Both the position numbers and the translations under genes were made by a program. A stretch of 64,000 bases of DNA from Cyanobium sp. Cruz CV13-4-11. GTDB taxonomy: Bacteria; Cyanobacteriota; Cyanobacteriia; PCC-6307; Cyanobiaceae. Numbering within the stretch: the first letter of the stretch is position 1; every line of letters begins with the position of its first letter. Under the pieces are notes generated by a model. The model was not told the DNA's origin and made no database searches. It saw nothing but the letters and a program-made list of their open reading frames with translations. The DNA lies in NCBI RefSeq assembly GCF_024346055.1, contig NZ_JAGQCH010000004.1, positions 62,001-126,000 of the forward strand. The letters run 5' to 3'. Below, piece after piece: positions 33,462 through 45,699 of this stretch.

Positions 33462-34174
33462 TGACGCCGCTGGACGCTGCAGTCGGGCGCGAGCGGCCCA
33501 TCGAGCTCCAGCATCTCGACCACTGGTTCGGCGAGGGGGAGACCGCCAAACAGGTGCTCATCGACATCAACCTGACGGTGCACGCCGGCGAGATCCTGAT
33601 CCTTACGGGGCCCTCAGGCTCCGGCAAGACCACCCTGCTGACCATGCTCGGCGGCCTGCGGGCCGCCCAGAGCGGCAGCCTCAGGGTGCTGGGGGAGGAG
33701 CTGCTCCATGCCGACAACGACGCCCTCACCCGGCTGCGGCGCCAGGCGGGCTTCATCTTCCAGGCCCACAATCTGCTGCCTTACCTGACGGCCCAGGAGA
33801 ACGTGCGCTTCGGCCTGGAGGTTTCGCCCACCTGGCTGGCTCGGGGCCGGGCAGCGATGGATGACTGCGCCGCCGCCATGCTCGGCCACGTGGGGCTGGC
33901 GGAGCGGCAGCACTACTTCCCAGAGAAGCTCTCCGGCGGCCAGAAGCAGCGGGTGGCGATCGCCCGGGCCCTGGCCCCCAGCCCCCGATTGCTGCTGGCC
34001 GATGAACCCACCGCCGCCCTGGACAAGACCTCCGGCCGCGACGTCGTCGACCTGTTCCGCCAGCTGGCGGACGACAACGGCGCCGCGATCGTGATGGTCA
34101 CCCACGACAACAAGATCCTCGACATCGCCGATCGGATCGTCACCCTCGAGGGTGGCCAGCTGGTCGAGAGCTGA
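33461..34174 (+). CDS. devA: DevA-family ABC exporter ATP-binding protein
   Basis: 237 residues from ATG 33461, overlapping the devC stop by one base. Walker A is GPSGSGKTT (Lys 56), with the signature LSGGQKQRVAIARAL and Walker B LLLADEPTAALD. It belongs to the LolD/MacB-like subgroup used by DevBCA exporters. The three dev genes form a tight, translationally coupled operon. Confidence 0.94.
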   Translation: MTPLDAAVGRERPIELQHLDHWFGEGETAKQVLIDINLTVHAGEILILTGPSGSGKTTLLTMLGGLRAAQSGSLRVLGEELLHADNDALTRLRRQAGFIFQAHNLLPYLTAQENVRFGLEVSPTWLARGRAAMDDCAAAMLGHVGLAERQHYFPEKLSGGQKQRVAIARALAPSPRLLLADEPTAALDKTSGRDVVDLFRQLADDNGAAIVMVTHDNKILDIADRIVTLEGGQLVES

Positions 34175-34376
34175 GCGGCGCAGGCCGGGGGCACTCTGCC
34201 GGCGCAGTTGGGATGGGCGAGGTCTTTCTCGAGGCGGCCCCGCAGGGCTTCGAGGCCCACCAGTCCCTCGATCGGCAGCAGCCCCTGCTCCACGCCGCTC
34301 GCCGCCGGACGTGCTGGATGGGGGTTAAGGGGTGAGCTCTCCCTACTGTGAACGCCATTGGCAAGACAACGTTCGG

Positions 34377-36677
34377 ATGGATCAGGCCACCCACAACCGG
34401 ATCGTGTCGTTCCTGTGGGGCATCGCGGACGACGTGCTGCGCGATCTGTTCCGGCGGGGCAAGTATCAGGATGTGATCCTGCCGATGGCGGTGCTGCGGC
34501 GGCTGGATGCAGTGCTGGAGCCCACCAAGGCCAAGGTGCTGGAAGCCAAGACCAGGCTCGATGCAGCCGAAATCAAGGAACAAGAAGCGGCTCTGCGCGC
34601 AGCGGCAGGCCAGGCCTTCTACAACGTTTCTCCCTTCGTGCTGCGCGATCTCACAACGCGTGGCAGCGAACAAAAACTACGGGCCGATTTCGAGGCCTAT
34701 CTGGAGGGCTTCAGCGACAACGTGCAGGACATACTTGAAAACTTCAAGTTCCGCAACCACATCCCCACGCTGTCACGCTCGGATTCGCTTGGCACACTGA
34801 TCAGCAAGTTCCTCGATCCCCAGATCGATCTGAGCCCAGCGGCCCTCGACAACCACGCCATGGGCACGGTGTTCGAGGAGCTGGTGCGCCGCTTCAATGA
34901 AGACAACAACGAGGAAGCAGGTGAGCACTGGACCCCCCGCGATGCGGTGCGGCTGATGAGCAACCTGATCTTCCAGCCGATCGCAGGCCAGGTAAAGAGC
35001 GGCAGCTATCTGCTTTACGACGGCGCCTGCGGCACCGGCGGCATGCTCACGGTGGCCGATGAAACCCTGCGGGAGCTTGCGCAGGCCCATGGCCAGCAGG
35101 TGGCAACGCACCTGTATGCCCAGGAGATCAACCCCGAAACCTATGCGGTCTGCAAGGCCGACATGCTGCTCAAGGGCGAGGGCGAGAACGCCGACAACAT
35201 CGTGGGCGGGGCTGAATGGTCGACCCTGTCACACGACGCCTTCCCGGCACGGGTCTTCGATTTCATGCTCTCCAATCCGCCCTATGGCAAGAGCTGGAAG
35301 AAGGATCTCGAAGCGATGGGCGGCAAGAAGGAGATGAAGGATCCACGTTTCCAAGTGAACCACAGTGATGAGCTGCTGTCGCTGGTGACGCGCTCCAGCG
35401 ATGGCCAGATGCTGTTCCTGGCCAACATGGCCAGCAAGATGAACCACGACTCGCCGCTGGGCAGCCGCATCGCCCAGGTTCACAACGGCTCCTCGTTGTT
35501 CACCGGCGATGCCGGCTCGGGCGAAAGCAACATCCGCCGCTGGCTGTTCGAGAACGACTGGGTGGAGGCAATCGTGGCCCTGCCGCTCAATCTCTTCTAC
35601 AACACGGGCATCGCCACCTATGTGTGGCTGCTGAGCAACCGCAAAATGCCCGAACGGCAGGGCAAGGTGCAGCTGATTGATGCCAGCGGCTGGAGCCAGC
35701 CGCTGCGCAAGAACCTGGGCAAGAAGAACTGCGAGCTGGGTCCGGCTGATATCGATCGCGTGATGGCCGCGTATGTCGCTATGGAGGAGAGCGAACACGC
35801 CAAGGTGTTCGCCAATGAGGCCTTCGGCTATTGGAAGGTGACGGTGGAGCGCCCGCTGCGCCTGCACAGCCGCATCACCCCAGCCGCGATCGCGGCGCTG
35901 CGCACCGCCTCGGGAGACAGGGAGATCCGTGAAGCGGCCCTGGAGCAGTTCGGCGATGCTCTGGTGACAGACTTTGCCGCCGTGCGGCCCAGCCTGGAGG
36001 GCTTCCTCAACGATTGGGGCTCCGAGGATGACAACGACGACGAGGAGGGCGACGAGGCCCCGAAGCGGGTGCTGCCTGAGAAACGCCGCAAGAAACTGCT
36101 GGATGGAGCCACCTGGCAACGCGATGAGCAGCTGACCGTGGCCGCCGAGGCGCTGCGGGAGCTGTTTGGTGAGGAGCTGTTCACCGATCACAACCACTTC
36201 CGCGCCGAGGTGCAGAAGGGTCTGAAGCTTCAGGGCATCAAGTTGACGGCGGCCGATCTGAAGCCGCTGCTGAAGGAAACAAGCTGGCGGGAGGAGCAGG
36301 CGCCACCAGTGATCACCAAGGTCCACAAGCCGAGCAAGGTCGAAGCCGATCCGCTCCATGGCCGCTACGAGGCCGAGATCGGCGGCAAGGCCTGCGTGGT
36401 GGAGTACGAGCCAGACGTGGACCTGCGCGACAGCGAACAGGTGCCGTTGCTGGAGGAGGGCGGCATCGAGGCCTTCATCCGCCGCGAGGTGCTGCCCTAC
36501 ACGCCCGATGCCTGGATCAACGCCGAAGCCACCAAGGTGGGCTATGAGGTGAGCTTCACGCGCCACTTCTACAAACCCAAGCCCCTGCGCTCCCTCGCCG
36601 AGATCGCCGCCGACATCCGCGCGATCGAGCAGGAGGCCGAGGGGCTGCTGGATGGGTTGCTGGTGGGGGCGGGGTGA
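34377..36677 (+). CDS. hsdM: Type I restriction-modification system methyltransferase subunit
   Basis: N6-adenine methyltransferase subunit HsdM of 766 residues from ATG 34377. The N-terminal HsdM helical domain is followed by the catalytic core. That core has SAM motif DGACGTGGMLTVADE and catalytic NPPY at residues 300-303 (SNPPYGKSW), then NDWVEAIVALPLNLFYNTGI. The C-terminal third is long and charged (EDDNDDEEGDEAPKRVLPEKR), longer than classical EcoKI HsdM. It is the first gene of a same-strand island with fic, hsdS, an AlbA_2 gene and hsdR. A 200-base gap without an intact gene separates it from devA, which marks the left edge of the island. Confidence 0.94.
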   Translation: MDQATHNRIVSFLWGIADDVLRDLFRRGKYQDVILPMAVLRRLDAVLEPTKAKVLEAKTRLDAAEIKEQEAALRAAAGQAFYNVSPFVLRDLTTRGSEQKLRADFEAYLEGFSDNVQDILENFKFRNHIPTLSRSDSLGTLISKFLDPQIDLSPAALDNHAMGTVFEELVRRFNEDNNEEAGEHWTPRDAVRLMSNLIFQPIAGQVKSGSYLLYDGACGTGGMLTVADETLRELAQAHGQQVATHLYAQEINPETYAVCKADMLLKGEGENADNIVGGAEWSTLSHDAFPARVFDFMLSNPPYGKSWKKDLEAMGGKKEMKDPRFQVNHSDELLSLVTRSSDGQMLFLANMASKMNHDSPLGSRIAQVHNGSSLFTGDAGSGESNIRRWLFENDWVEAIVALPLNLFYNTGIATYVWLLSNRKMPERQGKVQLIDASGWSQPLRKNLGKKNCELGPADIDRVMAAYVAMEESEHAKVFANEAFGYWKVTVERPLRLHSRITPAAIAALRTASGDREIREAALEQFGDALVTDFAAVRPSLEGFLNDWGSEDDNDDEEGDEAPKRVLPEKRRKKLLDGATWQRDEQLTVAAEALRELFGEELFTDHNHFRAEVQKGLKLQGIKLTAADLKPLLKETSWREEQAPPVITKVHKPSKVEADPLHGRYEAEIGGKACVVEYEPDVDLRDSEQVPLLEEGGIEAFIRREVLPYTPDAWINAEATKVGYEVSFTRHFYKPKPLRSLAEIAADIRAIEQEAEGLLDGLLVGAG

Positions 36678-36683
36678 AGGGTG

Positions 36684-36776
36684 CCATGGGAAAGGCTGCG
36701 ATGCGCATGCCGCCCAACACCCCCCATAGTGAAGACAGCGTTTACCATGGAACCAGGAAGCGCCCATGGGAAAGGC
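36684..36776. repeat. 13-bp direct repeat framing the hsdM-fic gap
   Basis: CCATGGGAAAGGC occurs at 36684-36696 and again at 36764-36776, 80 bases apart. The second copy contains the fic start codon. A partial third match (CCATGGAACC) lies near 36744. It may be a small duplication of the fic start region. Confidence 0.7.
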
Positions 36777-37962
36777 ACGGCAACCCATGCTTGAAGCCAG
36801 GTCGAGCCGCGCCGGCACCTACCGCACCCAGCCCACTGGCTACAGGGCCTTCCATCCCGCGCCGCTGCCTCCGGATCCGCCGCTGCAGTTGGGCGGCGAG
36901 CTGCAGGTGCTGCTCTCCCAGGCCGATCGGGCACTGGGGCGGCTGGATGGGTCGGTGGAAACGTTGCCGAATCCGGATCTGTTCGTGTTCATGTATGTAC
37001 GCAAGGAGGCGGTGCTCTCCAGCCAGATCGAGGGCACCCAGAGCTCCCTGCAGGATCTGCTGGCGGCAGAGGCCAACCTGTTCGGCACGGAGAACCTGCC
37101 CCACGATGTGGATGAGGTGGTGAACTACGTGCGAGCCATGAACCATGGCCTGGGAAGGTTGGTCACCCTGCCGGTGTCGATGCGCTTGATCGGCGAGATT
37201 CACGCCGAACTGCTGCAGGGAGTACGCGGCAGCCGGCTCACCCCGGGGGAGCTGCGCCGCAGCCAGAACTGGATCGGCCCGGGCGGCTGCACATTGAGCA
37301 CTGCCAGCTTCGTGCCACCACCACCGGAGCAGCTGCCGGAAGCATTGGGGGCCTTGGAGCGCTTTCTGCATGCACAGGACGATCTGCCGGCCTTGATCCG
37401 CATCGGCCTGGCCCATGCCCAGTTCGAAACGATCCATCCCTTTCTGGATGGCAACGGCCGGGTGGGTCGGCTGCTGATCACCTTCCTGCTCACCGAGAAG
37501 GGCATCCTGCAGAAACCAGTTCTCTACCTTTCGCACTACTTCAAGCAGCATCGCCAGGCCTATTACGACCATCTGCAGGCGGTACGGGACAATGGCGACT
37601 GGGAGGGCTGGCTGGCCTTCTTTCTGCAAGGCGTGGCAGAAGTGAGCCAGGAGGCCAGCGGCACGGCACGGCGCATCCTGGCGTTGCGGGAGCAGCACCG
37701 AGCTCTGATCACAGACCATCTGGGCCGCGCCGCCGCCAACGGGCACCGAGTGCTGGAAAGCCTGTTCGATCGGCCGATCGTGAGCGTGAACGCGATCGAA
37801 GCGCTGATCGCCACCACCTACCCCGCTGCCAACACGCTGGTGGCCCGGCTGGAGGCACTGGGCATCCTTCGTGAGATGACGGGGCAGAAACGCCACCGCC
37901 GCTTCTGCTACCAGCCCTACATCGAGCTGTTCGGCGACACGCCGCAGGAGGTGGCAGCGTGA
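36766..37962 (+). CDS. Fic-domain protein (predicted AMPylating enzyme)
   Basis: 398 residues from ATG 36766. The catalytic Fic motif HPFLDGNGRVGR starts at His 224. An N-terminal inhibitory helix with SSQIEG (Ser 85 to Gly 90) matches the (S/T)xxxE(G/N) pattern of class II Fic proteins, whose Glu blocks ATP binding until relieved. A C-terminal winged-helix-like domain (VNAIEALIATTYPAANTLVARLEALGIL) follows. It lies between hsdM and hsdS and overlaps hsdS by 4 bases, so it is made together with the restriction system. The target is unknown. Confidence 0.92.
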   Translation: MGKARQPMLEARSSRAGTYRTQPTGYRAFHPAPLPPDPPLQLGGELQVLLSQADRALGRLDGSVETLPNPDLFVFMYVRKEAVLSSQIEGTQSSLQDLLAAEANLFGTENLPHDVDEVVNYVRAMNHGLGRLVTLPVSMRLIGEIHAELLQGVRGSRLTPGELRRSQNWIGPGGCTLSTASFVPPPPEQLPEALGALERFLHAQDDLPALIRIGLAHAQFETIHPFLDGNGRVGRLLITFLLTEKGILQKPVLYLSHYFKQHRQAYYDHLQAVRDNGDWEGWLAFFLQGVAEVSQEASGTARRILALREQHRALITDHLGRAAANGHRVLESLFDRPIVSVNAIEALIATTYPAANTLVARLEALGILREMTGQKRHRRFCYQPYIELFGDTPQEVAA

Positions 37963-39359
37963 TTGAGGATCTGAAGCCCTATCCGGAGACCAAGGATTCA
38001 GGGTTGACCTGGCTGGGGGAGATTCCGGCGCATTGGGAGATCAAGCGCAATGGCAGTTTGTTCCTGCAGCGCAATGCCGTCGGCGAGCCCGATTGGCCCA
38101 TTCTTGAGGTTTCTCTGAGAACGGGGGTGCGGATCCGCGAGTTCGGATCATCAAAGCGCAAGCAAGTTATGAGCGATAAGGCGAAATACAAATGCGCCGC
38201 CAAAGGGGACTACGTCTACAACATGATGAGGATGTGGCAAGGGGCTGCCGGGATTGCACCGGTTGATGGCTTGGTGAGCCCTGCCTATGTGGTGGCCAAG
38301 CCTCTGCCCCATATCAATCCGGGCTACTTTGCATCGCTATTCCGAACAGATGACTATCTTGCAGAAATTGATGCCTTTTCTCGAGGCATTGTCAAAGACC
38401 GCAACCGCCTCTATTGGGATCAGTTCAAACAGATTCCCACCCCCTGCCCGCCGACTGAAGAGCAGGACGCCATTGTTCGCTTCCTCACCTGGGCTACCAA
38501 CCGCCTGGACCGCACCATCCGGGCCAAGCGAAGGATCATCGCCCTGCTGAATGAGCAGAAGCAGGCCATCATTCACCGTGCCGTGACGCGGGGGCTGAAT
38601 CCCTCCGTGCCGCTCAAGGATTCGGGGATTCCTTGGCTGGGGGAGATTCCGGAGCACTGGGAGGTGACAGCGCTTCGCCGGCACTGGACAGTTACCGACT
38701 GCAAGCATCTCACCGTCCCATTTGTAGAGAACGGAGTTCCTCTTGCCAGCGTCAGAGAAGTCAGAAATTTTGAACTTGACCTAAGCGAATGCAAACTAAC
38801 AACTCCTGAGTGGTACCAGCATCTGATCCAAGGCGATCGAAAGCCTGAAGAGGGCGACATCATCTATTGCCGTAACGTAAGCGTTGGCTCGTCAGCACTA
38901 GTGACAACCGATGCCAAGTTTGCAATGGGCCAAGACGTATGCCTGATTCGGTCAGAACTGCAGAGTCAGCAATATCTAAACTATCTACTGCAGAGCTCAT
39001 TCATGAAGAAGCAATTAGAGCTGCTTCTGGTTGGCTCTACATTCAAGAGGATCAACATTGCTCAAATCAAGGCGCTCACAGTGGTGATTCCACCAAGGCA
39101 AGAGCAAGATAAAATTGGCCGCCATCTCGCCGAGGAGCTCACTGCATACGAAACCGCAACATCCCGCCTAGAGCGCGAAATCACCCTCATCCGCGAGTAC
39201 CGCACCCGCCTAATCGCCGATGTGGTCACCGGCAAGCTTGATGTGCGGCAGGCTGCGGCCGGGTTGCCGGAGGACATCGAAACCTTCGATCCCGGCGAGC
39301 CAGGTGTCGACATCGAAGAACTCGAGCCCGACGAAGAAGTGGATCCCGAGCTGCCATGA
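37959..39359 (+). CDS. hsdS: Type I restriction-modification system specificity subunit
   Basis: 466 residues from GTG 37959. There are two target-recognition domains, each introduced by the same boundary motif (KDSGLTWLGEIPAHWEI near residue 13 and KDSGIPWLGEIPEHWEV near 222). Each is followed by a conserved helix (IVRFLTWATNRLDRTIRAKRR; IGRHLAEELTAYETATSRLE). The recognition parts (about 38100-38400 and 38680-39120) are visibly richer in A+T than the neighbours, as is usual for horizontally exchanged HsdS domains. The C-terminal tail is very acidic (DIEELEPDEEVDPELP). It overlaps the next gene by 4 bases. Confidence 0.94.
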   Translation: MIEDLKPYPETKDSGLTWLGEIPAHWEIKRNGSLFLQRNAVGEPDWPILEVSLRTGVRIREFGSSKRKQVMSDKAKYKCAAKGDYVYNMMRMWQGAAGIAPVDGLVSPAYVVAKPLPHINPGYFASLFRTDDYLAEIDAFSRGIVKDRNRLYWDQFKQIPTPCPPTEEQDAIVRFLTWATNRLDRTIRAKRRIIALLNEQKQAIIHRAVTRGLNPSVPLKDSGIPWLGEIPEHWEVTALRRHWTVTDCKHLTVPFVENGVPLASVREVRNFELDLSECKLTTPEWYQHLIQGDRKPEEGDIIYCRNVSVGSSALVTTDAKFAMGQDVCLIRSELQSQQYLNYLLQSSFMKKQLELLLVGSTFKRINIAQIKALTVVIPPRQEQDKIGRHLAEELTAYETATSRLEREITLIREYRTRLIADVVTGKLDVRQAAAGLPEDIETFDPGEPGVDIEELEPDEEVDPELP

Positions 39360-41059
39360 ACGAGCAAGAGCTCATTGCCTTGGTGGATCGCCTCCGCGGG
39401 TTGCCCAGAGAAACCGAGTGGCTGGAGTTCAAGCACAACAATGCTGATCCCGAGGAAATCGGTGAGTACCTCTCTGCCCTGGCCAATGAAGCCGCGCTGC
39501 TGAATCAGCCGCGCGGCTATCTGATCTTTGGCATCGAGGATGCCAGCCACGCCGTCGTTGGCTGTCGCTTCGATCCCTACACGGCCAAAGCCAAGGGCAA
39601 TCAGGATCTGCTGCCCTGGCTGGCCGCCCATCTGCAACCCAATCCCGGAATCGAGCCTCACTGCCTCAAGCACCCCGATGGCAGGGTTGCTCTGCTCGCA
39701 GTAGGCCCTGCCAGGGGGCGGCCGGTGGAGTTTCGGGGGCAGGGCTATTGCCGCGCTGGCACCAGCAAGACCAAGCTCGCCAATCACCCGGAAAAAGCGC
39801 GCAGGCTCTGGTCTCAGGGGGTCGACTGGTCTGCCAACGTCTGCGACGGCGCCAGCCTGGCGGATCTCGATCCCGAGGCCATTGCCAAGGCCCGCGAGCA
39901 GTTTCAGATCAAGCATCCCCAGCAGGCCCAGGAGCTCACCAGTTGGGACGACCGCACCTTCCTCAACAAGGCCCGGCTGCTGCGCCAGGGGGCGATCACC
40001 CACACCGCTGTTCTGCTTCTGGGCCGGTCTGAGGCCGCCACGCTGCTGTCGCCAGCCGTGGCCAAGGTGTCCTGGATCCTCAAGGACGCCGGCAACCACG
40101 AACTCGATTACGCCCACATCGGTCCTCCGTTTCTGCTGGCCGGTGATCAGCTGTTGCAACGCCTGCGCAACCTCACGGTGCGCGCCCTGCCCAGTGGCAC
40201 CCTCTTCCCGCAGGAGTTAAGCCAATACGACCCCTGGGTGCTGCGGGAAGCGCTCCACAACGCCATCGCCCATCAGGACTATCTCCGCCATGGCCGAATC
40301 ACCGTGGTGGAGTTCCCCGACCGCGTGCTGATCACCAACGTGGGCGACTTCCTCCCCGGAACGATCCGAACCGTGATCGAGCAGGACGCCCCACAGGAGC
40401 TCTACCGAAACCGGATGCTGGCGGACGCCATGGTGGAACTGAACCTGATCGATACCCAGGGCGGCGGCATCAAACGTATGTTCGAGACCCAGCGACGGCG
40501 CTCCTTCCCCCTGCCCGACTACGACCTCAGTGCCTCCGATCGGGTGCAGGTCACCATCCCCGGCCGCATCCTCGATGAACGCTACACACGGCTGCTGATG
40601 CAGCAGCCCGACCTCTCCCTGACCCAGGTGATCCTGCTCGACCGCATCCAGAAGGGCCTCCCGATCAGCCGCGACGAGCACCAGCAGCTCAAGAAGCAGA
40701 GGCTGGTGGAGGGCCGGTTTCCCCATCTGATCGTCTCGGCCGCCATGGCCCGCGCCACGGGCGAAACAGCCCGCCACATCCGCGAGAGCGGCTTCGAGAA
40801 GCAGTACTACCTCGATCTGATCCTCAAACTCGTCCGCCAGCATGAACCTGTGGCCCGCAAGGAGGTGGATGCCCTGCTACTGCCCAAGCTGCCTGAGCGT
40901 TTGAGCGAGGAGCAGAAGCTCAGAAAGGTTCAGAACCTGATGCAGGAGCTGCGCCGCGCTGGCCGAATCGAGCGGATCGGCACCCTGGAGGGCGCACGGT
41001 GGATCCTCAGGGCAGCAGCCGAGGGCTCTACTAAGGGCGGCTCCATCGCCGGCGATTAG
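39356..41059 (+). CDS. AlbA_2 (Schlafen-like) / HATPase_c_4 protein
   Basis: 567 residues from ATG 39356, overlapping hsdS by 4 bases. The AlbA_2 domain covers about 5-140 (PRETEWLEFKHNNADPEEIG, GYLIFGIEDASH). A RecG-like HATPase module follows, with the N-box LREALHNAIAHQDYLRHG, NVGDFLPGTI and the GGGIKRMFE block (to about 395). A winged-helix tail follows (about 460-555). Relatives are often found inside type I restriction loci and other defence islands, but their action is not settled. The stop TAG at 41057 begins a 3 x 12-bp repeat that repeats the TAG in frame. Confidence 0.85.
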   Translation: MNEQELIALVDRLRGLPRETEWLEFKHNNADPEEIGEYLSALANEAALLNQPRGYLIFGIEDASHAVVGCRFDPYTAKAKGNQDLLPWLAAHLQPNPGIEPHCLKHPDGRVALLAVGPARGRPVEFRGQGYCRAGTSKTKLANHPEKARRLWSQGVDWSANVCDGASLADLDPEAIAKAREQFQIKHPQQAQELTSWDDRTFLNKARLLRQGAITHTAVLLLGRSEAATLLSPAVAKVSWILKDAGNHELDYAHIGPPFLLAGDQLLQRLRNLTVRALPSGTLFPQELSQYDPWVLREALHNAIAHQDYLRHGRITVVEFPDRVLITNVGDFLPGTIRTVIEQDAPQELYRNRMLADAMVELNLIDTQGGGIKRMFETQRRRSFPLPDYDLSASDRVQVTIPGRILDERYTRLLMQQPDLSLTQVILLDRIQKGLPISRDEHQQLKKQRLVEGRFPHLIVSAAMARATGETARHIRESGFEKQYYLDLILKLVRQHEPVARKEVDALLLPKLPERLSEEQKLRKVQNLMQELRRAGRIERIGTLEGARWILRAAAEGSTKGGSIAGD

Positions 41060-41092
41060 CAGAGCAGTTAGCAAAGCCCCTAGCAGAGCTCC
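41057..41092 (+). repeat. 3 x 12-bp tandem repeat at a stop codon
   Basis: Units TAGCAGAGCAGT, TAGCAAAGCCCC and TAGCAGAGCTCC follow each other from the stop codon of the AlbA_2 gene. The 12-base period keeps TAG in frame three times. A 7-bp inverted repeat with a 1-base loop (CTGGCCT/AGGCCAG) lies just downstream at 41124-41138, in the gap before hsdR. Confidence 0.75.
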
Positions 41093-41157
41093 CGAACGGC
41101 ATAAGCCAGTGGCGTGCCCCAGACTGGCCTCAGGCCAGCCACAACCACCCGGCCCCC

Positions 41158-44100
41158 ATGCCCACCGATACAAGCGAGCAGGGCCTGGAAGCGCTGATCA
41201 CCCGCGCCATGACCGGGCGCACCCATCTGCTGGAGCCGTCCCACCAGGCCACGTCATCCGCCGTGCCGGTGAGTGGCGGCACCGGTTGGCTGCTGGGCGA
41301 CCCGCGCCACTACGACCGCAGCCACTGCCTGGATCTGGTGCAGCTGCAGGGTTTTCTGGAGGCCACCCAGCCGCAGATCGCCGAAGCCCTTGCGATCGGA
41401 GTGGATGGGCCCACTCGCCGGCAGTTCCTGGCCCGGCTGGAGAAACAGATCACCCAGCGCGGCGTGGTGGACGTGCTGCGCAAGGGCATTCGCCACGGCC
41501 CCCACGAGATCCAGCTCTTCTACGGCACGCCCTCCTCTGGGAACAGCCGCGCCGCCGAGCTGTTCGGCCTCAACCGCTTCAGCCTCACACGCCAGCTCGC
41601 TTACAGCAACGACCAGACCCACCGCGCCCTCGACCTGGCCCTGTTCATCAATGGCTTGCCGGTGGCCACCTTTGAGCTCAAGAACAACCTCACCTGTCAG
41701 AGCGTTCAGCACGCGATCCGCCAGTACCAACACGACCGCGATCCCCGCGAGTCGCTCTTCGCCTTCGCCCGCTGCCTCGTGCACTTCGCCGTGGACGAGC
41801 AAGAGGTGCGTTTCTGCACCCACCTCATCGGCAAGGAATCTGAGTTTCTCCCCTTCAACCGCGGCACCGCCTCCGGTGGCGCCGGCAATCCCCCCAGCGC
41901 AGACGGCATCGCAACGGCCTACCTGTGGGAGCAGATCCTCACGCCGAGCAGCCTCACCGACATCCTGGAGAACTACGCCCAGGTGGTGGAAAAGCCCAAC
42001 CCGCGCACCGGCCGCAGGAGCTACAGGCAGATCTTTCCCCGCTACCACCAGCTGGATGTGGTGCGCTCGCTGCTGGCGGATGTGGCCGCCCATGGCGCCG
42101 GCCGCTGCTACCTGGCCCAGCACTCCGCCGGCAGCGGCAAGAGCAACTCGATCGCCTGGCTCAGCCACCAGGTCGCCGACGTAATCCACAACGGTCAGCG
42201 CGTGTTCGACTCGGTCATCGTCGTCACCGATCGCCGCAACCTCGATGAGCAGTTACGGAGCAACATCCTCGCCTTCATGCAGGTGGGCGCCACAGTAGGC
42301 GCCGTCACCGGCCGAGGCAGCTCCAAGACCGAGCAGCTCAAGCAGTTTCTGGCCGCCGGCAAGAAGATCATCATCTGCACCCTGCAGACGTTTCCCGAAC
42401 TCTGCCGCCAGCTGGATGAGGCTCCCCAGGGGCGCCGTTACGCGGTGATCATCGACGAGGCCCATTCCAGCCAGGGCAGCAAGGCCTCCGCCGCCCTCAA
42501 CCAGGCCCTGGCCGCCGATGAGCCGAACCTGCCGGACGACGCCGACATTGAAGACTTCGTGAATACGGTGATTGAGCAGCGGCTCAGCAGCCGCCGCCTG
42601 CGCCCCAACGCCAGCTATTACGCCTTCACCGCTACCGCCAAAGCCAAGACGCTCGAACTATTCGGCACGCCCCTACCTCCGGATGGGGAAGGCAAGATCG
42701 GTCGTCGGCCCTTTCACGCCTACACAATGAAGCAGGCCATTGAGGAGAAGTTCATCCTCAATGTTTTGCAGTACTACACCCCGATCAGCAGCTACTATCG
42801 GTTGGTGAAAACGATCGAGGCTGACCCGCTGTTCGACAGCAAACGCGCCCGCTCAAAATTGCGCCGCTATGTGGAAAGCCACGACACGGCCATCCGCAAC
42901 AAGGCCGAGATCATGGTGGATCACTTCCTCGACGATGTGCTGCCTTTGCGGGAGATGAAGGGGGAAGCCCGCGCGATGGTGGTGACCGGCGCCATTGAGC
43001 GGGCGGTGCAGTATTTCCATGCCATTCGCACGTACTTACACGAGCGCCACAGCCCCTTCCTGCCGATCGTGGCCTTCTCCGGCGACCACGACTTCGGCGG
43101 TGGGCCCGTGAGCGAGGTCTCCCTCAACGGCTTTCCCTCCAGCGAGATCACCAGCCGCATCCAGGAGGATCCCTATCGCTTCCTGATCTGCGCCGACAAA
43201 TTCCAGACCGGCTACGACGAACCGCTGCTGCAGGCCATGTATGTGGATAAGGCCTTGGGCGGCATCCAGGCGGTGCAGACCCTCTCACGCCTCAACCGCG
43301 CTGCCCCGGGGAAGAAACGCGTGTTTGTGCTCGATTTTCAGGACAACGCCGCTGCTGTGGAGGCGGCCTTCGCTGATTACTACAAGACCACCCTGCTGAG
43401 CAAAGAAACCGACACCAACAAGCTGCACGATCTCCGTGACAGCCTCGACAAACTTGGCGTGTACACCTGGGAGCAGGTGGAGGAGTTCGTGGGGCTCTTC
43501 CTCAGCAACAGGGATCGCGAAGCCCTGCAGCCGATCCTGAACCAGTGCCGCCAGATCTACACCGAACAGCTCAGTGAAGACGACCAGGTGGCCTTCAAGA
43601 GCAAGGCCAAAGCCTTTGTGCGCAGCTACGACTTCCTGGCCACAATCCTCACCTACGACTATCCGGAATGGGAGAAGCTTTCCATCTTCCTCACCTTGCT
43701 GGTGCGTGCCTTGCCAGCCCCAGAGGAGGACGACCTGACCAAAGGGATGCTGGAGCTGATCGACATGGACAGCTACCGCATCGAGAAGCAGGAGGAGCGC
43801 GGCGTACCTCTTCCCGATCAGGATTCCACGTTGGATCCCGCCCCCGTTTCAGGCGGTGGCTTCGGGCGCCAGCCGGTACTCGAATCACTTTCGGTGATCG
43901 TCACCAACTTCAACGAGAAGTTCGGTACCAGCTTCAGCGATGAAGACCGCATCCGCCGCCTCATCCGTGATGAGATCGCCCCCCAGGTGGCCCAGGACCA
44001 GCGCTACCGCAATGCCAAGGCGAACACCCCGAACACGGCCGCCATCGAGCTCGATGCCGCTTTGAATCGAGCCGTGGATCCGCTGTTTCTCGATCAGACG

Positions 44101-44199
44101 GAGTTTTACAAGCAGTTCAAGGACAATTCACTGTTCCGCAACTTCGTGCGGGATATAGTGACGCGACTGATCAACAACAACCCCGACAGATCACCATAA
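41158..44199 (+). CDS. hsdR: Type I restriction endonuclease subunit R
   Basis: ATP-dependent translocase and nuclease of the type I system, 1013 residues from ATG 41158. The N-terminal nuclease domain shows the PD-(D/E)xK elements LALFINGLPVATFELKN. The helicase motor has Walker A HSAGSGKSN (Lys 328), VVTDRRNLDEQL, DEAH at 433-436 (VIIDEAHSSQG) and FTATAKAKTLELFG. Helicase domain 2 includes DKFQTGYDEPLLQAMYVDK and TLSRLNRAAPGKK. All motifs are intact, so restriction is probably active. It overlaps the convergent DUF6880 gene by 9 bases at the 3' end. Confidence 0.95.
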   Translation: MPTDTSEQGLEALITRAMTGRTHLLEPSHQATSSAVPVSGGTGWLLGDPRHYDRSHCLDLVQLQGFLEATQPQIAEALAIGVDGPTRRQFLARLEKQITQRGVVDVLRKGIRHGPHEIQLFYGTPSSGNSRAAELFGLNRFSLTRQLAYSNDQTHRALDLALFINGLPVATFELKNNLTCQSVQHAIRQYQHDRDPRESLFAFARCLVHFAVDEQEVRFCTHLIGKESEFLPFNRGTASGGAGNPPSADGIATAYLWEQILTPSSLTDILENYAQVVEKPNPRTGRRSYRQIFPRYHQLDVVRSLLADVAAHGAGRCYLAQHSAGSGKSNSIAWLSHQVADVIHNGQRVFDSVIVVTDRRNLDEQLRSNILAFMQVGATVGAVTGRGSSKTEQLKQFLAAGKKIIICTLQTFPELCRQLDEAPQGRRYAVIIDEAHSSQGSKASAALNQALAADEPNLPDDADIEDFVNTVIEQRLSSRRLRPNASYYAFTATAKAKTLELFGTPLPPDGEGKIGRRPFHAYTMKQAIEEKFILNVLQYYTPISSYYRLVKTIEADPLFDSKRARSKLRRYVESHDTAIRNKAEIMVDHFLDDVLPLREMKGEARAMVVTGAIERAVQYFHAIRTYLHERHSPFLPIVAFSGDHDFGGGPVSEVSLNGFPSSEITSRIQEDPYRFLICADKFQTGYDEPLLQAMYVDKALGGIQAVQTLSRLNRAAPGKKRVFVLDFQDNAAAVEAAFADYYKTTLLSKETDTNKLHDLRDSLDKLGVYTWEQVEEFVGLFLSNRDREALQPILNQCRQIYTEQLSEDDQVAFKSKAKAFVRSYDFLATILTYDYPEWEKLSIFLTLLVRALPAPEEDDLTKGMLELIDMDSYRIEKQEERGVPLPDQDSTLDPAPVSGGGFGRQPVLESLSVIVTNFNEKFGTSFSDEDRIRRLIRDEIAPQVAQDQRYRNAKANTPNTAAIELDAALNRAVDPLFLDQTEFYKQFKDNSLFRNFVRDIVTRLINNNPDRSP

Positions 44200-45699
44200 A
44201 CCTGGCTGCAGCGGCCCATCGCTGGCGGCAGGACTGGCAGCCTGAGTGGGGTCAGCACTTTGGGCTGTTCTCGACTGTCCTGCTGGCTCGGATTCAGGCG
44301 CAACCTCTTTCGGCACCAGGCTCCAGAAGCCGTACTTGCGGCCATGATCCCGCCGGAGCTGGGGCCCATAGCTGCGGTGATCGGCGAGTTCCCCCCAGCT
44401 CTCGATCCGTTGGGCCAGGAGGTGGCAGGTGTGCAGATGGCGGGCGGCATAGGGATAGCGCTTGCTGCGCCCCACCCGCAGGCTGAAGTCGATCATCGCC
44501 CGCAGGCAGCGGGTGGCAGCCAGGGGGTGATCCTTCTCCAGCAGCTCCGCCAGCGGTGCCAGCAGCACGTAGCAGTCGCCATTGAGCGGCTTCGGCGTGG
44601 CCAGCACCAGCCGGGCGGCGCGGCGCGGTTCGGGCCAGTGCAGGAGAAACCAGAGCGCTTCCTGCAGATCGTCGTGCTCCGCCAACAGATCGAGGGCCCG
44701 CTCCTCGGCATCCGCATCCTCGAAAGCTGGCAGCCGCTTCAGGTAGTCGCGAAGGTGGCGGCGCGATAGTTCCATCAGGGCATACTCCCAGCGCTGCCCC
44801 TGGGCCTCGTCGTGGCGGCCGAGGGCCTCCAGCGCCGCGAGGCGGGCATCGCACCACTCCTCGGCCCCGGCCCGGCGCTCGGACAGCCTTGGGTCGGCCT
44901 CCTCCAGCAGCGCCAGCGCCTCCTCGGCCCGGCCGGCGGGGGTGAGCCGCTCCGCCACCCTGGCCGCGATCGCCGGCACCGTCAGCGCCTCGGGATCATG
45001 GTCGCGGTATTCCGCCAGATAGGCCTCGGCATCGCCCAGGGCATCGGCGATGTCGAGCATGGCGATGCGCACGATCCAATCTCGGTGCGTTTTCGCTTGT
45101 TCGTTGTTGGTGACGCGAGCCCGCAGGGTCTCCAGCCGCTGCCGCAGATGGGCCAGCCCTTCCGACCCCAGCGCCGGCCCCAGATCCCGCAGGATCGGAT
45201 CGAACTGGCCGTAGCTGTTGCCCACGATCGCGGCATACACCTGATCAGCCAGAGGCCTGGGATCCCCGGAAACCCTGAGGGCCGCGGCGCCAAGCGCGGC
45301 GCTGCCCTGATGAAAGAAGTCGCGCAAAACGGCGTCGCTGTCGTCGCAGCGCTCGAACAGGCCCTCCGCCAGAGCGAGCAGATCCCACAGCAGCTCCACA
45401 GCCCGTGCTGGATCCTGCTCGGCGATCGGCCCGCTGATGGCCTGGCGCTGCCGCTCCAGATCCTGCAACAGCGCGTCCCTCTGGTGGTCATCCAGAAAGC
45501 TGCCAGAGCGCTCGATTGTGGCCAGCCGCTTGCGCACTTCTCTGGCGATCTCCGCAGGACCCTTCTGTTCCGCCAGTGCCAGGCGCAGCATGCGCCTGGC
45601 ACTGGCATCCCCCTTGCTCAGGGTGAGCAGCAGCTCCGCCAGCCTGGCCGCCCCCAGGGCTTCGAGGTTTTTGGCATTGAGACTGGATTGGCCGGCCAT
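44191..45699 (-). CDS. DUF6880-like family protein
   Basis: 502 residues from ATG 45699. It is all-alpha in appearance, with repeated Leu/Ala/Arg-rich helices resembling TPR-like stacks (AEEALALLEEADPRLSERRA, AEERALDLLAEHDDLQEALWF). Near the C-terminus is the conserved YPYAARHLHTCHLLAQRIESW block typical of proteins annotated as DUF6880, often paired with SWIM zinc-finger proteins. No catalytic motif is visible and function is unknown. It is encoded 27 bases downstream of valS on the same strand and meets hsdR tail to tail. It may mark the right edge of the restriction island. Confidence 0.75.
   Translation of the reverse strand: MAGQSSLNAKNLEALGAARLAELLLTLSKGDASARRMLRLALAEQKGPAEIAREVRKRLATIERSGSFLDDHQRDALLQDLERQRQAISGPIAEQDPARAVELLWDLLALAEGLFERCDDSDAVLRDFFHQGSAALGAAALRVSGDPRPLADQVYAAIVGNSYGQFDPILRDLGPALGSEGLAHLRQRLETLRARVTNNEQAKTHRDWIVRIAMLDIADALGDAEAYLAEYRDHDPEALTVPAIAARVAERLTPAGRAEEALALLEEADPRLSERRAGAEEWCDARLAALEALGRHDEAQGQRWEYALMELSRRHLRDYLKRLPAFEDADAEERALDLLAEHDDLQEALWFLLHWPEPRRAARLVLATPKPLNGDCYVLLAPLAELLEKDHPLAATRCLRAMIDFSLRVGRSKRYPYAARHLHTCHLLAQRIESWGELADHRSYGPQLRRDHGRKYGFWSLVPKEVAPESEPAGQSRTAQSADPTQAASPAASDGPLQPGLW

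Follow-up and report, generated by a model that had tools for sequence, protein, structure and literature searches.

A type I restriction-modification operon of Cyanobium with two exchangeable cargo slots, holding a SoFic-like gene and an AlbA_2/GHKL ATPase gene

Genes of the operon

Five genes, all on the + strand, form a type I restriction-modification (R-M) operon, hsdM-fic-hsdS-AlbA_2-hsdR, at 34377–44199 of the window, that is, of the whole 64,000-nucleotide stretch analysed here (G000:C34:62001-126000) from the 3.4 Mb genome of Cyanobium sp. Cruz CV13-4-11. Cargo sits in two slots, the first separating hsdM from hsdS (M–S) and the second hsdS from hsdR (S–R), and these, to judge from the DNA comparisons below, are exchanged INDEPENDENTLY. 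The layout of the operon, its slots, their independent exchange and the remnant left by one replacement can all be read from the DNA itself.

Open reading frames (ORFs), translations, Pfam matches and gene junctions agree on this layout (Table 1). The first-pass annotation had listed the five genes in this order and direction, 4-base overlaps of fic with hsdS and of hsdS with AlbA_2, an intact class II Fic active site with its own inhibitory SSQIEG and an N-box in the AlbA_2 protein, and each of these is borne out, the overlaps reading GTGA and ATGA, the Fic motifs lying at residues 224 and 85 and the N-box, EALHNA, at 298. The two remaining junctions are gaps of 88 bases (hsdM-fic) and 98 bases (AlbA_2-hsdR). 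A scan of 34000–44500 found no promoter-like sites on either strand and no terminator-like sites on the + strand, which is weak evidence and, for promoters in a cyanobacterium, not very informative. Pfam and PADLOC both back the naming of the hsd and fic genes, and Pfam that of AlbA_2; in NCBIfam four of the five proteins match below the cutoffs and the AlbA_2 protein has no match. HsdM, HsdR and Fic each have intact catalytic motifs, those of HsdR being ELK at 173 with an upstream D, GSGKS at 325 and DEAH at 433 for nuclease and helicase. In HsdS, which has two separately exchanged regions, the PADLOC match spans residues 5–433 and Pfam recognises one Methylase_S stretch. The locus thus looks like an intact type I R-M operon, with predicted restriction and methylation activity. 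Embedded defences are foreign genes lying between hsd genes in the same orientation, and this is the position of fic; the AlbA_2 protein has a putative role in defence.

Table 1 Features of the operon (positions in the window; aa, amino acids)
Feature	Position	Strand	Basis
hsdM, adenine methyltransferase subunit, 766 aa	34377–36677	+	Pfam N6_Mtase, HsdM_N; PADLOC MTase_I 837 bits
HsdM motifs DGACGTG at 215, NPPY at 300	within 34377–36677	+	motif scan
M–S cargo slot, hsdM stop to hsdS start, exchanged as a block	36678–37958	+	identity drop against L025; other cargo in relatives
fic, class II SoFic-like protein adenylyltransferase (predicted), 398 aa	36766–37962	+	Pfam Fic_N, Fic, HTH_13
Fic inhibitory helix motif SSQIEG, residues 85–90	37018–37035	+	aligns with SSEIEN of SoFic
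Fic active-site motif HPFLDGNGRVGR, residues 224–235	37435–37470	+	motif scan
hsdS, specificity subunit, 466 aa, GTG start	37959–39359	+	Pfam Methylase_S; PADLOC Specificity_I 384 bits
hsdS variable regions, two	~38000–38450 and ~38680–39170	+	mosaic DNA identity; vary independently of cargo
S–R cargo slot, between hsdS and hsdR	39356–41157	+	relatives hold DarTG, HEC-01, Septu, GmrSD or nothing there
AlbA_2 / GHKL ATPase / winged-helix protein, 567 aa	39356–41059	+	Pfam SLFN_AlbA_2, HATPase_c_4
Schlafen carboxylate triad E19, E24, D62, with K26	39410–39541	+	alignment with SLFN13 5yd0
GHKL-type ATPase domain, residues ~217–408, N-box E298–N302	40004–40579	+	conservation, fold
C-terminal winged helix, residues ~480–553	40793–41014	+	similar in fold to the repressors MecI and BlaI and to further winged helices
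hsdR, restriction/translocase subunit, 1013 aa	41158–44199	+	Pfam HSDR_N, SWI2_SNF2, ResIII, T1R_D3-like

Class II Fic proteins are defined by an HPFxxGNGRxxR active site together with an N-terminal inhibitory (S/T)xxxE(G/N), and the window Fic has both. It matches SoFic in PADLOC at 7.8e-122 (405 bits) and SoFic structures in the PDB at 2.2e-36; it reaches 164.1 of the 550 bits of the NCBIfam SoFic equivalog cutoff, and is, judged by these matches, a relative of SoFic and not an equivalog. The two proteins have in common the active-site and inhibitory motifs, Fic_N and the C-terminal domain, whereas their surroundings differ, since the window fic overlaps hsdS and leaves no space directly behind it for an AS1-like gene. 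Published work describes SoFic as a defence protein that is toxic, acts by AMPylation and causes abortive infection (PMC12249575). The same genome encodes a second full-length Fic, 51% identical to that of the window (L002, G000:C3:947-2107), with no hsd match in the flanks covered and with similar copies in other genomes of the genus.

Exchange of slot contents among relatives

The nearest named relatives of the window AlbA_2 protein come from a Cyanobium metagenome-assembled genome (MAG; L025) and from Synechococcus sp. CS-1329 (L028). Compared with L025, DNA identity is 88% in hsdM and 92% over the stretch that runs from the hsdS end across AlbA_2 and hsdR. In 100-base blocks the identity is 82–97% in hsdM, falls to 39–55% over 36700–37899, is 71% at 37900–37999 and lies at 84–98% in the blocks that follow, with a second drop at the second hsdS variable region. 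The M–S slot of L025 holds, in place of fic, two genes of 386 and 127 aa that match PADLOC PDC-M32A (3.7e-75) and PDC-M32B (5.8e-39). Against L028 the fic stretch is kept (89–98% per 100 bases; protein 96%) while both hsdS variable regions differ, and cargo and DNA specificity therefore change independently.

Of the 41 genomes examined in the genus, an HsdR relative at 1e-100 is present in 14 and fic at 1e-80 in 12. The second hsd locus of the genome studied here (L125, G000:C4:26000-45000; HsdR 60% identical) reads hsdM, PDC-M32A/B, hsdS, DarT, DarG, hsdR, and the M32/DarTG pair recurs in G411. The operon of G417 is hsdM-fic(86%)-hsdS-HEC-01A-HEC-01B-hsdR(85%); that of G387 is hsdM-fic(91%)-hsdS up to the end of the contig, and on another contig of G387 hsdS is followed ~0.35 kb further by hsdR (60%). 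In G392, AlbA_2-like pieces precede a split hsdR. Four slot combinations are thereby represented, fic/AlbA_2 (window, L028), M32/AlbA_2 (L025), fic/HEC-01 (G417) and M32/DarTG (L125, G411), and because all four are found in the genus together with L025 and L028, the slots have been recombined or refilled separately. Counting the window's own, four fic genes reach 85% identity or more to it (window, L028, G387 and G417), and every one lies between hsdM and hsdS.

The remnant of a replaced gene is seen in G422, where part of DarT is followed by DarG, a 3′ remnant of AlbA_2, a 3′ remnant of hsdS, an HEC-01-like pair (71–73% identical to HEC-01A/B of G417), an hsdR 89% identical to that of the window and then the 502-aa gene that also neighbours the window operon (92%). 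The AlbA_2 remnant comprises 42 residues on the − strand (L236, G422:C37, 8471-8596; 62% to window residues 524–565, E 1e-10), from which it follows that an AlbA_2 gene was formerly present there. The repeated end of hsdS suggests that recombination took place in the conserved hsdS ends. Apparent in-frame TGA codons in many relatives of the 502-aa neighbour were also considered; among 8 regions checked, the codon ends a shorter protein in 2 and falls outside the aligned part in 6.

A wider search with HsdR at 1e-100 found relatives in 32 of 386 cyanobacterial genomes, at 34 places, of which 30, including the window, could be read across hsdS and hsdR; L128, L137, L120 and L123 have no hsdS on the contig and were dropped. 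The M–S length of L141, whose contig has no hsdM, was taken from the contig end, and in L142 hsdM and hsdS are split. A slot of at least 300 base pairs (bp) is present at M–S in 17 loci, at S–R in 25, at both in 14 and at neither in 2, and filling of one slot shows no correlation with filling of the other (odds ratio 0.85, Fisher p = 1.0). The slots contain DarT/DarG (L125, L126), Septu PtuA/B (L154), SIR2 (L159), a KAP ATPase (L155), DUF4268 with DUF4357 (L157), PIN and HNH proteins and a transposase (L144). Cargo ORFs of 100 aa or more were listed, 120 in all (114 plus six, AlbA_2 genes and some spurious ORFs included), and those of 130 aa or more clustered; 43 were scanned with Pfam together with ten slot proteins from elsewhere, and 31 of these 53 non-window proteins were classed in defence, toxin or nuclease-type families.

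The first-pass annotation proposed to look for fic and AlbA_2 together in related cyanobacterial hsd loci; of the 30 readable cyanobacterial loci with this type of hsdR, the window is alone in carrying fic or AlbA_2 in a slot. Neither gene is a regular hsd partner in cyanobacteria: AlbA_2 relatives at 1e-20 occur in 11 of the 386 genomes, and none of 30 non-window fic loci (out of 60 such places) has hsd genes in its flanks of up to 1.5 kb, the slot-borne copies of L028, G387 and G417 standing outside those 30. The annotation had further regarded the two genes as one coupled set, set against their occurring independently and at random positions. Each is found in its own slot with other partners in near-identical operons, fic without AlbA_2 in G417 and AlbA_2 without fic in L025, and these swaps rule out an obligate pair; independence is seen, but randomness is not, since AlbA_2 lies behind every readable hsdS of the AlbA_2 operons in this hsdR subtype. 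One fic relative (L190, G041:C29) lies beside an AlbA_2-like ORF (8e-19), with no hsd match within 1.5 kb.

The AlbA_2 protein and its neighbourhoods

The S–R cargo of the window scores 52.1 bits for SLFN_AlbA_2 (cutoff 25.3) and 52.3 bits for HATPase_c_4 (cutoff 26), and its N-box residues E298 and N302 are each present in 84/84 relatives. No specific PADLOC model fits, the best match being the SIR2-pAgo model at 1.1e-06. PrrC, an ABC-ATPase with HEPN, was rejected as an identity, as Pfam at 0.001 gives SLFN_AlbA_2 and HATPase_c_4 only. A profile search of known structures returned 3lmm (6.2e-14), rat SLFN13 (5yd0, named Schlafen 8 in its file; 5.2e-6) and then SLFN14 and SLFN11. An AlphaFold2 model calculated from 37 sequences (pLDDT 84, pTM 0.61) was compared with structures using VIA-align, which matched 3lmm with Z 23.1 (408 aligned, root-mean-square deviation (rmsd) 17.4), residues 235–405 to the histidine-kinase ATP domain 4u7o with Z 9.8 (117 aligned, rmsd 3.3) and residues 482–560 to the winged helix of MecI, 1okr, with Z 10.0 (69 aligned, rmsd 4.9). 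No Schlafen was among the rows returned, which are filled by ATPase and winged-helix domains and barely probe the AlbA_2 part; Foldseek gave weak alignments with SLFN14 (E 3.7e-05) and SLFN13 (8.6e-04). With the SLFN chains, whose Schlafen core is two-lobed, one stretch only aligns.

In SLFN13, mutation of any of the carboxylates E205, E210 and D248 lowers the RNase activity, and for two of the three the mutation abolishes it (PMC5862951), and K212 lies near the Schlafen RNase site (PMC8789055). The window protein has in common with the Schlafen RNases SLFN13, SLFN14 and SLFN11 the AlbA_2 domain, the carboxylate triad and a lysine two residues past the second glutamate, its K26 occupying the place of K212 (PMC5862951, PMC8789055); it differs in the GHKL ATPase and winged helix that follow the domain. 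Among relatives E19 is conserved in 63/73, E24 in 72/74, K26 in 75/75 and D62 in 57/76, with N in 18. All four residues are present in 14 of the 25 rows from an hsd context (6 have D62 changed to N, 4 are cut there and 1 has E19 changed to G) and in 28 of the 56 others, so that the hsd context does not select for the site. The carboxylate site alone proves nothing, given that no RNase activity was seen for SLFN5, which has the triad (PMC8789055).

We surveyed 80 of 197 relatives of the protein, giving 79 loci from many phyla, which were found through AlbA_2 and are thus biased to operons holding it. The gene directly follows hsdS in 17/79 loci, with a 4-base overlap in 14 of the 17; an eighteenth flagged row, L072, has a fused type IIG gene, and L025 is an additional case, missed through its split gene. 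An hsd-profile match lies near AlbA_2 in 43/79 loci, that of L024 being weak and on the other strand. At 58% identity or more, 14 of 16 loci are at an hsd operon (L029 and L060 are cut, with only hsdR visible); the two that are not are L024 and L017, where AlbA_2 adjoins sulfatase and phosphodiesterase genes. For AlbA_2 loci of this hsdR subtype with a readable hsdS, the place of AlbA_2 is always behind it.

The M–S slots of these AlbA_2 operons have varied contents: SIR2 with HerA (L016), GmrSD (L018 and L019 by Pfam, L026 and L036 by similarity), Mrr_cat (L021), DUF4357 (L023), Abi_2 with DUF559 (L030) and HNH (L048). In L020 (2671-8598) five genes, encoding a TIR/SLOG protein, two ThsB-like TIR proteins, MazG_C and a 5-hmdU DNA kinase helical-domain protein, are perhaps one multi-gene defence system. 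Cargo overlaps hsdS by 4 bases in L016, L020, L025, L026 and L028. Eleven of the loci have an HsdR that scores above 1000 bits and can be read from hsdM to hsdS (L016, L018, L019, L020, L021, L023, L025, L026, L028, L036 and L048), and L028 alone has fic there; same-family fic genes lie outside but near the operon in L019 and L020, ~5 kb behind hsdR, and in L026, in front of hsdM.

AlbA_2 relatives also accompany other modification systems. On Phaeobacter/Sulfitobacter plasmids with transfer genes the AlbA_2/HATPase gene lies between type III mod and res (L176 8950-10605, L177 8950-10605), as does the relative in L163, which was the only match when the loci collected by that stage were queried with type III mod and res. 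In BREX operons it lies between BrxC and PglX (L058 2505-4187) or between PglX and PglZ (L067 2017-3675), and in L046 and L072 it follows type IIG enzymes. Among 72,556 plasmid records 754 have HsdR relatives and 4 have AlbA_2 at 1e-40. A Meiothermus plasmid carries hsdM-GmrSD-hsdS-DarT-DarG-AAA_21-DUF4276-hsdR, its AAA protein matching HEC-01A; E. coli pLAO4 has GmrSD genes and a Vibrio gigantis plasmid DUF4268 at S–R, and a Sphaerotilus plasmid has a YhcG nuclease before hsdS, with an hsdM remnant behind a Tn3 transposase. Two of the six plasmid regions opened, from Serratia and Niallia, have no gene inside the hsd operon. The HsdR search of viral contigs gave four relatives, L166 with DarTG-like genes at S–R.

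Possible roles of the cargo

We think it probable that the operon is a chassis whose two cargo slots are refilled independently by recombination with self-contained anti-phage or toxin-type modules that overlap hsdS in their reading frames. In the window the M–S slot holds a predicted SoFic-like AMPylating enzyme and the S–R slot a Schlafen-type AlbA_2/GHKL/winged-helix protein. The Hsd proteins would be the first line, host DNA being methylated and incoming DNA cut; Fic, restrained by its own helix, might during infection AMPylate host proteins and so arrest growth; and the AlbA_2 protein, gated by its ATPase, could be an RNA-cleaving effector or a regulator controlling the operon. The great diversity of cargo families makes a single physical coupling to Hsd unlikely for all of them, and shared expression and transfer would be the simplest common reason for cargo to reside in the operon.

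Several observations weigh against the chassis reading. Some slots of at least 300 bp hold a transposase only (L144), a small PIN protein or unannotated and perhaps non-coding DNA, so that 25/30 is not a count of defence cargo. The slot proteins outside the defence, toxin and nuclease classes comprise 8 with no Pfam family, 12 with only a family of unknown function, 1 transposase and 1 helix-turn-helix/peptidase protein; 2 of the 8 and 1 of the 12 match PADLOC candidates. AlbA_2 is rare in the genus (1/41 genomes at 1e-40), and the comparison within the genus draws on few operons, several of them ended by contig ends. In addition, hsdM is interrupted in all three other fic-bearing operons, L028 and G387 having one in-frame stop each and G417 a frame break, and other genes are interrupted too: AlbA_2 of L025, split over two frames by a MAG assembly error or a true break, DarT of G411 by a frame break, and the split hsdR of G392, all of which may be draft errors or decay. 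The hsdM interruptions may likewise be draft assembly errors or decay and, if real, would mean that fic outlives a working HsdM; in L025 and the window hsdM is uninterrupted. The interrupted spans are L028 4997-7291, L238 118-1794 and L237 3108-5431, and fic reads through.

The first-pass annotation had seen in Fic and AlbA_2 a back-up layer. As a general idea of a second line of defence this stands and has published precedents; the special coupling of these two genes does not. That they form one co-adapted layer firing when restriction fails is very improbable: they share an operon with overlapping frames, they occur together in the window and L028, and R-M neighbourhoods with RNase and DOC genes, including RloC plus DOC toxins, were proposed in 2013 as a three-level defence (PMC3710099), but each pairs with other partners in the same slot of near-identical operons, and hsd genes lie within 1.5 kb of none of the 30 non-window fic loci examined. 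Almost as improbable is addiction, in which toxin-type cargo mainly prevents loss of the island. DarTG, PIN and Fic are toxin-antitoxin families and the carriers include plasmids, some with Tn7-like genes near, whereas the families of the GmrSD, Mrr-type, SIR2-HerA and Septu cargo act directly against phages, and slot contents vary among close relatives.

For the AlbA_2 protein itself a role as regulator of the operon, transcriptional or ATP-sensing, and not as effector, is possible, if less than likely, owing to its winged helix. The predicted MecI- and BlaI-like C-terminus, the modelled architecture, the same as that of 3lmm, the SLFN5 precedent (PMC8789055) and the change of D62 to N in 18/76 relatives, including 6/25 from an hsd context, are consistent with it; the position of the gene inside the operon and not in front, its presence with unrelated modification systems and the retention of RNase-site residues E19, E24 and K26 in most rows are not. 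Somewhat more doubtful is a mechanism like that of PrrC, which is held in the Hsd complex of EcoprrI and freed by phage anti-restriction (PMC3874165, PMC12707154). Here the Hsd complex would restrain AlbA_2 as a latent RNase, and perhaps Fic too, until phage anti-restriction proteins released it. The occurrence of AlbA_2 behind hsdS in many phyla, with 14 of 17 overlapping, and at mod/res and PglX/PglZ fits such a guardian, but for 36/79 AlbA_2 loci the flanks covered have no hsd-profile match (short contigs and the BREX locus L067 included), and the neighbouring hsd subtype can differ completely (L027, L031, L047, L054, L065). The type IC EcoprrI locus resembles the window operon in having a second-line gene inside the hsd operon, there one for an anticodon nuclease; it differs in that PrrC is an ABC-ATPase/HEPN protein (PMC3710099) and that the window operon has a second slot. 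The broader proposal, that AlbA_2/GHKL/winged-helix proteins are uncatalogued guardians, ATP-gated Schlafen-type RNases that monitor methylation-based defences (type I, type III, BREX) and are released when restriction is blocked, is unlikely; were it true, the protein would be a PrrC analogue assembled from unrelated components and would correspond, in bacteria, to the antiviral Schlafens.

A 2024 preprint by Payne et al. reportedly describes defences embedded within other immune systems (guilt-by-embedding), and the HEC-01 and PDC-M32 families in the slots of relatives are PADLOC models. Embedded defence genes in type I loci, such as PrrC and DarTG, are already known. A 2012 paper (PMC3506569) proposed toxin-type genes in R-M loci and their repeated displacement by other toxins, and in 2025 DarTG2 was described between hsdS and hsdR of a type I island of enteropathogenic E. 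coli (EPEC), RptR-RMS-DarTG-M48, with measured anti-phage activity (PMC12255303). The S–R position of this toxin-antitoxin pair is as in the second hsd locus of the present genome, but the island has its own repressor in front and a metallopeptidase behind, and the available text names no gene between hsdM and hsdS and no fic or AlbA_2 (PMC12255303). In Histophilus somni a figure legend gives hsdR-abi-hsdS-fic-hsdM (PMC3339403), with fic between the specificity and M genes as in the window and Abi instead of AlbA_2. We found no description of two-slot independence in the accessible parts of the literature on embedded defences, and a search limited to published papers, few of them under subscription, listed none that deals with fic and AlbA_2 in the same hsd operon or with an embedded defence role of AlbA_2. 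Two points appear to be new: the pair of slots, whose independent exchange is directly evident, and the candidacy of AlbA_2 as an uncatalogued cargo. The chassis reading makes a testable rule, that the two cargo positions of this hsd subtype vary independently of each other and of DNA specificity, and offers a simple way to find defence genes; a ready-made operon also suggests a route for toxin-type genes between strains, and the AlbA_2/GHKL proteins are a candidate link between bacterial restriction and the Schlafen antiviral proteins.

Two observations concern plasmids. In none of six plasmid fic regions is fic part of an hsd operon that runs in its direction; Synechocystis pSYSX (L170 8013-9089) has a fic of 57% identity between hsdS and hsdR, encoded on the other strand and overlapping the end of hsdS. 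The same hsd type is also found near Tn7-like genes and WYL on plasmids of Serratia (L147 5096-15063, tnsE) and Vibrio (L150 2613-15033, tnsD and tnsE), and Tn7-like elements may therefore carry it.

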